Below are positions 49,117 through 53,596 of a stretch of 63,516 bases of DNA, in pieces. Source of the DNA: an uncultured Bacteroidales bacterium (GTDB taxonomy: Bacteria > Bacteroidota > Bacteroidia > Bacteroidales > UBA932); assembly GCA_944325965.1 (NCBI GenBank), contig CALVCB010000003.1, positions 1 through 63,516 of the forward strand, in the 5' to 3' direction. The notes below the pieces were generated by a model. It saw only the letters and a program-made list of their open reading frames with translations, was not told the DNA's origin and ran no database searches. Numbering within the stretch: the first letter of the stretch is position 1; every line of letters starts with the position of its first letter. The position numbers were made by a program, and so were the translations under genes.

Positions 49117-49147
49117 CAAATATATAAATGTGGCTCGGTATTTGCAA
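49117..49147 (-). promoter_or_regulatory. Promoter of rlmH-kinase operon
   Basis: Minus-strand TATATTTG (plus 49117-49124) and TTG (plus 49145-49147), spacing 20 bp, just upstream of the rlmH ATG at 49101. The mRNA would be nearly leaderless (around 10 bases). Confidence 0.6.
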
Positions 49148-49188: not shown

Positions 49189-49593
49189 ATGAAAAAGCGT
49201 TTAAGCATAGCATCAGCCTTAATATTCCTCTTTATCGGGGCCAGTTCGCATGCTCAGGACAACGGCTATGATGTATTTGTGCCTATTGCCAAATACATGC
49301 AGGCAGGAGACGCGGACAAGCTGTCGGCGTGGTTCGCTGACAACCTCGAAATCACGATATTCACAGTCACCAACGACTCGAGCCGAAGCCAGGCCAGACA
49401 GATACTCAAGACATTTTTCAATTCATACACTCCACGGTCTTTCGATCTGACACACAAGGCAGGACGTGCCAACATGAAATATGCCCTCGGCTCGCTGAAT
49501 GCAGGAGGAGAGATATTCATCGTCACGATATTCGTAAGCTACAAGGACACTTCCTATAAAATACAGCAGATAAAAATAGAACGGATTCAGTAG
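49189..49593 (+). CDS. DUF4783 family exported protein
   Basis: A 134-residue protein with a signal peptide (MKKRLSIASALIFLFIGASSHAQ) and a single small alpha+beta domain fitting DUF4783, an NTF2-like Bacteroidota family: IAKYMQAGDADKLSAWFADNLEITI, SRSQARQILKTFF and a strand-rich end. Function unknown; probably periplasmic. The frame is open further upstream into rlmH, but ATG 49189 starts the signal peptide. Confidence 0.82.
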   Translation: MKKRLSIASALIFLFIGASSHAQDNGYDVFVPIAKYMQAGDADKLSAWFADNLEITIFTVTNDSSRSQARQILKTFFNSYTPRSFDLTHKAGRANMKYALGSLNAGGEIFIVTIFVSYKDTSYKIQQIKIERIQ

Positions 49594-49596
49594 TTT

Positions 49597-49610
49597 GGCA
49601 TAGTAATTGC
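49597..49610 (+). promoter_or_regulatory. Candidate sigma-54 (-24/-12) promoter
   Basis: The sequence TTTGGCATAGTAATTGCAAT contains GG at 49597-49598 and GC at 49609-49610, separated by exactly 10 bases. Flanking bases match the sigma-54 consensus TGGCAC-N5-TTGCW except one. It lies just after the DUF4783 stop and before a short AT-rich stretch that ends in a terminator, with no gene on this strand beyond. Start of transcription would be near 49622. Confidence 0.6.
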
Positions 49611-49621
49611 AATACACTTAA

Positions 49622-49692
49622 ACCGGTTAGTTTAGTTGTTAATAATAGGGTTATAGTGAAAAAGGTTGAGCTGTGAAGTTCAGCCTTTTTTT
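49622..49692 (+). ncRNA. Candidate small RNA (about 70 nt) from a sigma-54 promoter
   Basis: Between the putative -24/-12 promoter and the terminator is a non-coding stretch of about 70 bases, beginning near AACCGGTTAG and ending in a hairpin with a T7 tail. No frame longer than a few codons is present, and the next gene lies on the opposite strand, so the transcript cannot be a normal mRNA leader. Alternatively, the terminator may simply end the DUF4783 transcript and the promoter match could be chance. Confidence 0.45.
49659..49692 (+). terminator. Terminator after DUF4783 / candidate small RNA
   Basis: AGGTTGA (49663-49669) pairs with TCAGCCT (49680-49686) with one G-U pair, extended by A/T pairs, and is followed by seven T. 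The A-run on the left may let it also act on the opposite strand for the M16 peptidase gene ending at 49697. Confidence 0.85.
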
Positions 49693-51865: not shown

Positions 51866-53596
51866 ATGTCAGAATATATAGTATCAGCACGAAAATACAG
51901 GCCGGACAGCTTCGGGACACTCATCGGCCAGGACAACATCGCCCAGACTCTTAAGAACTCGATTCTCAGGGGACAGCTTGCCCATGCCTACCTGTTCTGC
52001 GGGCCACGCGGGGTCGGCAAGACAAGTACGGCAAGGATATTCGCAAAGACCATAAACTGCTCCGACCCGACACCGGACATGGAGCCATGCGGGAAATGCG
52101 AGTCGTGCCAGTCCTTCGCAGAAGGAAGGTCCTACTGCATACATGAGCTGGACGCCGCCTCAAATAATGGAGTGGATGACATAAAGGCCCTGATGGACCA
52201 GGTCCGTATCCCGCCTCAGGTCGGAAAATACAGCGTATACATCATAGACGAGGTACACATGCTTTCACAGGCAGCTTTCAATGCCTTCCTGAAGACTCTT
52301 GAGGAACCTCCCGCACATGCAATATTCATTCTCGCTACTACCGAAAAGCACAAGATACTCCCTACCATACTGTCCAGATGCCAGACCTACGACTTCAACA
52401 GGATTACAATAGAAGACATAGTCCGCAATTTGCGCGGCATAGCCACACGGGAAGGAATAAAGATAGACGATGAATCGCTCCATATCATAGCCCACAAGGC
52501 TGACGGGGCGATGAGAGACGCCCTGACCATATTCGACCAGACAGTGGCATTCTGCGGGACGGAGGTGAAATACCAGGATGTACTGAAGAACCTGAATGTA
52601 CTGGACTACGAGCACTGTTTCATGCTCGTGGAGGACTTCCTCAGGGGGGACTATGCAGCCGCACTGCTCAAATTTGACGAAATCCTGTCCAAAGGATTCA
52701 ATGCGCTCCACTTCATGGCGGCCCTAAGCTCCCATTTCAGGGACCTAGCAGTCAGCAAAAGCGCAGGTCTCGAGGCACTGCTTGACCTGCCGGAGTCCCT
52801 GAAGAAAAAATACAGGGAGCAGGCGGAGCGCTGCCCCATTCAGTTCCTGTACGATTCGCTCAACATAACCACGGCATGCGAGGCCGGTTACAGGGCAAGC
52901 ATAAATCCGAGGCTGCATATAGAATTCGCACTGATGAAACTCAGCTTCCTGTCGAGAAAGGTGCAGGACCAGCCTGCTGCAGGGCGTCCAGCAATGCAGG
53001 AAACGCGTCCGGCACCGGCGCCATCCTCCTCAGAAGTAGGGAGGCAGGACAGCGGCCCTGTCCCGGGACCGGCTGATACAGATAAAGATGAAAAGCCACG
53101 GGAGACGGCACCGAGAAGGCGACAGGGCCGCAACGGCGCACCGGCGGGCCTGTCCATCAAGTCCGTGATGTCAGGAACGGAAGACAATGCCACGGCAGAT
53201 GCCCCAAGGCCGGAATTATCCGAAATCCCTGACGACGAGCTGCTGAAATTCAAGTGGAAAGACCTTGCCGCAAGGTATGCTTCAAAACCGAGGCTGGCTA
53301 ATACGCTGAGCTCATCCTCGCTCGATATCATGCTGCGGGATGGAGCGAAGCATGTCACATTCACAGTACAGAATGTCGCCCAGAAAGAGTGGATAGAGTC
53401 AAAACTGCTTCACGAGCTGGAGAAAGCATTCAGGGGGCTTGCAGGATCGGACAGAATATACCTCAAGGTATCCGTACTTCCGGATACTGAGGTAAAGCAG
53501 ACTGTATATATGCCGAGCGAGCAGGCAAAGGACCTGATGTCAAAGAATGAAGAAGTCAAAAACCTTGTAAAGGACTTCGAACTGGATGTAAAATAA
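51866..53596 (+). CDS. dnaX: DNA polymerase III subunit gamma/tau
   Basis: A 576-residue clamp-loader ATPase. The Walker A is GPRGVGKTS (residues 46-54), a zinc module uses Cys65, Cys75, Cys78 and Cys81, and the Walker B/DExx is YIIDEVH (125-131). SRC occurs in TILSRCQTYDF. The clamp-loader domain III follows, then a Pro/Ala-rich linker (about 375-430) and a C-terminal tau-like domain. No frameshift signal for a short gamma form was noticed. lptB follows at 18 bp. Confidence 0.95.
   Translation: MSEYIVSARKYRPDSFGTLIGQDNIAQTLKNSILRGQLAHAYLFCGPRGVGKTSTARIFAKTINCSDPTPDMEPCGKCESCQSFAEGRSYCIHELDAASNNGVDDIKALMDQVRIPPQVGKYSVYIIDEVHMLSQAAFNAFLKTLEEPPAHAIFILATTEKHKILPTILSRCQTYDFNRITIEDIVRNLRGIATREGIKIDDESLHIIAHKADGAMRDALTIFDQTVAFCGTEVKYQDVLKNLNVLDYEHCFMLVEDFLRGDYAAALLKFDEILSKGFNALHFMAALSSHFRDLAVSKSAGLEALLDLPESLKKKYREQAERCPIQFLYDSLNITTACEAGYRASINPRLHIEFALMKLSFLSRKVQDQPAAGRPAMQETRPAPAPSSSEVGRQDSGPVPGPADTDKDEKPRETAPRRRQGRNGAPAGLSIKSVMSGTEDNATADAPRPELSEIPDDELLKFKWKDLAARYASKPRLANTLSSSSLDIMLRDGAKHVTFTVQNVAQKEWIESKLLHELEKAFRGLAGSDRIYLKVSVLPDTEVKQTVYMPSEQAKDLMSKNEEVKNLVKDFELDVK

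Follow-up and report, generated by a model that had tools for sequence, protein, structure and literature searches.

A predicted sigma-54-type small RNA behind DUF4783 in a Bacteroidales genome and its possible pairing with SusC transporter mRNAs

Positions 49594-49692 of the window (the whole 63,516-nt stretch of contig CALVCB010000003.1 that was analysed) very probably constitute a gene for a small RNA (sRNA) with a sigma-54-type promoter. The locus fills most of the 103-bp gap between the end of a DUF4783 gene (49593) and the end of an M16 peptidase gene on the minus strand (49697). In order, the gap contained TTTGGCATAGTAATTGCAAT, the core CGGTTAGTTTAGTTGTTAATAATAGGGTTATAGT, a 15-pair hairpin and seven T. 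As read from the sequence, the promoter element, the core and the terminator are present and are conserved jointly in related loci. The source genome was 2.06 Mb and 78% complete, and its genus was inferred from the DUF4783 protein, since the nearest records to this protein came from uncultured Bacteroidales and Candidatus Cryptobacteroides. The features are as follows.

49192..49593, plus strand: DUF4783 gene (Pfam PF16022), the upstream neighbour of the RNA in many relatives
49594..49611, plus strand: sigma-54-type (-24/-12) promoter, TTTGGCAT-N4-ATTGCA, from the sequence and its presence in 37/39 loci selected by the core
49621..49692, plus strand: predicted sRNA of about 71-72 nt, from sequence, fold and the near-constant distance between -12 element and core
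49624..49657, plus strand: conserved, near-invariant 5' core of 34 nt, candidate seed
49658..49692, plus strand (also readable as a minus-strand terminator): terminator hairpin and T run, from the fold and covariation in kin

The sequence TTTGGCATAGTAATTGCAAT occupied 49594-49613, and within it TGGCAT-N5-TTGCA began 2 nt past the DUF4783 stop. The earlier note had described a -24 GG and a -12 GC at exact 10-base spacing; on re-reading, GG was located at 49597-49598 and GC at 49609-49610, 10 bases apart and in a TGGCA and TTGC context. The published sigma-54 consensus, TGGCACN5-7TTGCT, agrees with the pair conserved here, TGGCA and TG(C). The exact pattern TGGCAYRNNNNTTGCW occurred once in the window. 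When one mismatch was allowed, three matches were found against 1.84 expected, which was not significant, as 29 of 100 shuffles reached three. Genome-wide, the exact pattern matched three times, at the window locus, upstream of a second sRNA-like unit on C106 (below) and within a 290-aa ORF on C64, and the 34 promoter-like matches with up to one mismatch were not above the reversed-pattern control (55). Significance from the pattern count alone was rejected, both counts being within chance. It is because of conservation in kin, and not because of the pattern match, that the promoter stands above chance. In a search for enhancers over 66 upstream regions, no 6-mer palindrome recurred in more than three, and none was convincing. 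Another sigma-54-like site, TGGCTCGGTATTTGCA, was located at 49131..49146 on the plus strand, before the DUF4783 gene; of the 81 DUF4783 loci compared, 63 had a similar upstream site (TGG[CT]N7[TC]TGC). DUF4783 may itself be sigma-54-driven, or the site may belong to the divergent rlmH promoter.

Conservation was determined in loci collected by a DUF4783-based search, which found 132 loci; 80 related ones were kept, giving 81 with the window. Since 44 of the 81 were chosen by TGGCA-N6-NTG plus the core motif behind DUF4783, the invariance of the promoter letters in alignment A1 (38 of the 44 loci) is partly by construction. A choice free of this circularity, by the core alone, gave 39 of the 81 loci. 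TGG-N9-TG ended 13-15 nt before the core in 37 of these 39, with TGGCA in 37/37 and the full TGC in 29, whereas shuffled upstream stretches contained the element in 18/1950 cases (0.9%). In the remaining two (L028 and L034) the element was located farther upstream, with an inserted stretch between. The spacing of GG and GC, on which the earlier note had staked its proposal, was thus kept in kin that retain the flanking gene. The stretch separating the -12 element from the core varied in its letters but hardly in its length, as expected if the core starts at the transcription start. From the -12 element the RNA start was placed at about 49621-49622, which would make the core the 5'-terminal part of an RNA of 71-72 nt. 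Thirty-six matches were located downstream of DUF4783, and two of them (L057, L063) had no core after the promoter match. Six loci (L047, L050, L054, L056, L028 and L034) kept the sigma-54 element behind DUF4783 with a longer or different core, for which they were omitted from A1; such variant cores suggest evolution of the seed.

The hairpin at 49658-49691 consisted of 15 pairs and a 4-nt loop, with T at 49686-49692. Its minimum free energy had a z of -4.33, and equal stability was reached by 0/200 shuffles. The terminator that the earlier note had placed downstream of the predicted start was recovered as a hairpin and T run ending at 49692. The fold z was below -2 in 39 of the 44 loci. A strict finder of perfect-stem terminators detected 23 of the 44 against 6/220 shuffles, several of the missed stems having mismatches. 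RNAalifold on 36 rows (alignment A2 held 36 of the 38 rows of A1) gave no consensus structure, because the hairpins vary and align badly; single folds and an alignment of eight kin were used instead. In these eight closest rows a 12-pair stem was 98.9% kept with double changes in six pairs, and its covariation was reached by 0/500 shuffles for four measures and 1/500 for a fifth. The leading 37 columns were identical across the eight kin, and the mean unpaired fraction of the core was 0.61 in single-sequence folds. No shared short ORF was seen, although 42 of 44 rows had some ORF (6-32 codons, start within the first 60 nt). Taken as a whole, the proposal of a terminated sigma-54-type sRNA stood in that promoter, core and hairpin are conserved together; it did not extend to every DUF4783 locus, the unit being missing from 37 of the 81.

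R1, a sequence-only model of the promoter and core built from the DUF4783-selected rows, had matches in 111 of the 299 family genomes (E<=0.01), and many of these matches were partial or weak. The stricter level of E<1e-6 left 29 of 62 own-genus genomes and, in the same draw, 0 of 237 genomes of other genera. Among the best 30 R1 loci, a DUF4783 match adjoined the RNA in 24 and was absent in 6.

We further investigated if the genome encodes the machinery that such a promoter needs. RpoN was encoded in the genome itself and in 278 of 299 family genomes (141 of the 143 good ones); as it is near-universal, its co-occurrence with the RNA is uninformative but permissive. The sigma-54 activator domain PF00158 was found in eight proteins, three of them strong (E<1e-66). 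Weaker PF00158 matches are unspecific because 14/14 control genomes have them too. By eye, a receiver-like part was present in two of the strong activators (L113 and L115) and not in the other (L114). The genome encodes both RpoN and candidate activator proteins. The NtrY-like kinase gene nearby, previously taken as a link to sigma-54, could not be upheld as one: among loci with at least 2 kb upstream it was present in 40/41 with the RNA and 30/30 without, and the linkage was rejected as unspecific. In Proteobacteria, sRNAs such as GlmY depend on sigma-54 and have a -24/-12 promoter that needs an activator. The RNA predicted here has the same kind of promoter and would have the same need for an activator; it belongs to a different phylum and is likened to these sRNAs by promoter alone.

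On C106, flanked by genes for a cyclophilin and for DUF456, a second sigma-54-type sRNA-like unit (L085) was composed of TGGCACAGGAGTTGCA and GAATAGTTTTTTCATAGGTTAAGTTTTAGGTTAGAATTG followed by a hairpin and T run. Judged by their elements, the genome holds at least two sigma-54-type sRNA units. RNAs like that of the window were named type 1, and those like the C106 unit type 2. Type 1 shares the promoter, the layout and GGTTA motifs with type 2, and GGTTA/GTTAA motifs recur in both. The type-2 design was also found in other genera of the family. R2, a model of the type-2 unit, matched 84 of 393 genomes of the order at E<=0.001, many by part of the model only. Twenty-three R2 matches were read; they included copies with a sigma-54 element in other families (L251, L255, L256, L260 and L262), copies with a sigma-A-like box, and matches antisense to gene starts. 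Three near-identical R2 core matches in family f93 (L247, L248 and L252) had in common a repeated flank that contained another AGGTTAGGTTTAG block; they had no sigma-54 element and are possibly another multicopy sRNA. A tandem pair of type-2 matches about 190 nt apart was observed at G041:C33:16199-16461.

According to PMC11697453, the FopS RNAs of B. thetaiotaomicron pair at the start codon region and block SusC translation, and their promoters in Bacteroides are of the sigma-ABfr type; PMC7366714, PMC10994844 and PMC13370916 provided further background. No Rfam family matched the window at the gathering threshold, and HrrF, GibS and FopS matched the locus below cut-off. The window RNA scored 13.5 bits (E 6.8) with FopS (RF04319; cut-off 56), which does not place it in that family by score, and the FopS model had 0 matches at E<=0.1 in the genome. 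Like FopS RNAs, the predicted RNAs are short, begin with a seed at the 5' end and finish in a terminator hairpin, occur in several copies per genome and are complementary to SusC start regions; the seed block TTTTTTCATAGGTTAAGTTTTAGGTTA is common to FopS and the type-2 sigma-54 RNAs. Unlike FopS, which has a sigma-ABfr promoter, they have one of the sigma-54 type, TGGCAT-N5-TTGCA in the window, and type 1 is without the TTTTCAT block and without a significant match to the model. The R1' seed block GTTTTTCAT...AGGTTAA was absent from the type-1 RNA of the window, and the genome's type-2 RNA has a block like it. GibS (RF04182) is likewise a Bacteroides sRNA related to FopS that pairs with start regions and has a non-canonical promoter, PM2; it differs in that PM2 is near-palindromic with elements at -10/-30 rather than -24/-12, and its match in the window scored 19.9 bits (E 0.7).

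Type-2 relatives in the family scored about 25-32 bits against the FopS cut-off of 56, and the type-2 copy L160 scored 31.9. FopS was scanned for in 26 genomes, matching at E<=0.1 in 20 and above cut-off in three; because these genomes were picked for their R1 or R2 matches, the share of sigma-54 copies among them is biased upward. Of 22 own-family rows matching the FopS model, 15 had a sigma-54 element, two had TAnnTTTG (L294 and L299) and five had neither by the patterns used; 14 of the 15 were read in sequence, and the other (G046:C21) is an R1 match spanning the promoter. Five loci were read in genomes where FopS matches exceeded the cut-off; TAnnTTTG was present at -12 in 5/5 and the sigma-54 element in 0/5. 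Moreover, two genomes of the own genus, G022 (L299) and G189 (L294), contained FopS-like RNAs with TAnnTTTG alongside sigma-54 copies. We conjecture that the window RNA descended from a FopS-like RNA.

Pairing with SusC start regions was calculated using RNAduplex. Loci were obtained for 30 of 39 SusC matches in the own genome and 30 of 49 in G189; 28 of the 30 in the own genome were used, L172 and L195 being dropped for internal starts, and compared with 127 other ORF starts. These controls were mechanical ORFs with unchecked starts. For type 1, the mean dG was -17.0 kcal/mol for SusC versus -15.05 for the others (p=0.0045), a difference reached by 2/100 dinucleotide-shuffled cores. Type 2 gave p=0.0028 and 1/100 shuffles, and reversed and reverse-complemented cores showed no SusC bias in the own genome. 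In G189, its own type-1 letters gave p=0.012 with the first ATG and 4.4e-5 with the signal-peptide ATG (0/40 shuffles each), and the type-2 letters of the window genome gave p=0.0085 (2/40). Under the same two start rules, the values for the window genome were p=0.0059 (2/40) and 0.022 (1/40). The bias, 1.4-2.7 kcal/mol, is moderate, the p-values come from several tests and are uncorrected, and the leaders of SusC genes are richer in AU than the others (GC 0.36-0.39 versus 0.46). The strongest duplex in the window genome was with L171 (-25.1), spanning -41 to -6. Complementarity to SusC start regions, a mark of FopS, was thus found as a moderate bias in two genomes. From these calculations the bias is repeatable but moderate.

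A near-perfect antisense target was not found in the own genome: the 18-mer search with up to three mismatches returned the locus itself and one three-mismatch site, and the reversed control gave two sites. Antisense positions were also read at 28 partial or promoter-less matches (11 R1 and 17 R2), which are no random sample. Four of the 11 partial R1 loci lay opposite the beginning of an ORF of 100 aa or longer. Two of them (L168, L271) concern one lipoprotein-like gene in two genomes; the remaining two, L274 and L275, comprise a gene for a secreted protein and one that is tentatively SusC-like, is truncated by the end of its contig and matches CarbopepD and STN below cut-off. Seven of the 17 R2 loci were antisense to ORF starts, four of them SusC/RagA-like (CarbopepD_reg_2 and TonB plug), and all four came from the single family f24.

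On balance, we consider it more probable than not that the locus encodes a sigma-54-switched, FopS-like, trans-acting sRNA that represses SusC-type transporters by seed pairing; our confidence is slightly lower because the antisense SusC matches stem from one family. A real sigma-54-type sRNA with some other main job, its repeated GGUUA motifs binding a protein or other RNAs, is unlikely but has evidence of its own: the conservation of the core, 37 identical columns in eight kin, is longer than a short seed requires, GGTTA/GTTAA motifs occur in both types, and starts of non-SusC genes were also found antisense (L168, L275, L254, L258 and L266). Against it are the SusC bias in two genomes and the SusC-like antisense starts, and no RRM_1 (RbpB-like) protein was found in the genome at its 78% completeness. 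This last result also weighs against the preferred FopS-like reading, RbpB binding being a mark of the FopS family.

The other explanations dispense with such an sRNA or with its promoter. A hairpin between convergent genes that also reads as a minus-strand terminator could be a bidirectional terminator beside a chance promoter, the single promoter match being within chance; any short RNA would then be a piece of the DUF4783 message, from its 3' UTR. This is very improbable, as the core is kept while the downstream gene changes (M16 was present in just 5 of 43 related loci having the RNA) and also persists in the R1 loci without DUF4783, and the promoter element accompanies it in nearly all core-selected loci. 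Transcription from a housekeeping sigma-ABfr promoter, to which the sigma-54 likeness would be incidental, has precedents in the Bacteroides FopS RNAs (PMC11697453) and in the TAnnTTTG at -13 of the FopS-like RNAs of two own-genus genomes (L294, L299). TAnnTTTG is absent before the core in the window sequence, and the conserved pair has the fixed spacing of the sigma-54 consensus, so that we regard this origin as slightly more improbable still. A promoter with an early terminator is also the layout of an attenuator, yet a regulatory leader of a downstream gene is the least probable reading of all: the next plus-strand gene, dnaX at 51866, is more than 2 kb off behind two minus-strand genes, as the earlier note had already argued, and the downstream gene is not conserved.

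Under the preferred reading, SusC repression, RNA polymerase with sigma-54 (RpoN) would make a trans-acting sRNA of about 71 nt, and would presumably do so only in response to an active NtrC-type activator. At its 5' end this RNA would carry a seed that is mostly single-stranded, and at its 3' end the terminator hairpin. Messages for TonB-dependent outer-membrane transporters of the SusC type, and perhaps for other exported proteins, would be bound by the seed at their leader and start codon, and the pairing would block translation in the manner of FopS in Bacteroides. That the RNA is transcribed, depends on sigma-54, pairs inside the cell, represses its targets and answers to an inducing signal is inferred from sequence comparison. 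Pairing with SusC start regions, absent from the earlier reading, appears to be a better functional lead than the nitrogen or stress regulation suggested there. At somewhat less than an even chance, Bacteroidales may have a split FopS-like network with sigma-ABfr copies and sigma-54 copies, sometimes in one genome (G022, G189), in which an NtrC-type signal can silence the translation of glycan transporters; the RNA of the window would then represent a branch confined to the genus, with a new seed of its own.

According to PMC12316311, protein genes such as grpE are under sigma-54 in Bacteroidota, and among the matches listed in the open-access PMC literature no sRNA under sigma-54 in Bacteroidota was found. 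Since no Rfam family reached threshold in the window, the RNA would be a new family with candidate targets. If the proposed repression is true, sigma-54 would gain a concrete role in gut Bacteroidales, the post-transcriptional shutdown of SusC-type transporters, and a sigma-54 switch would be tied to the control of food uptake.
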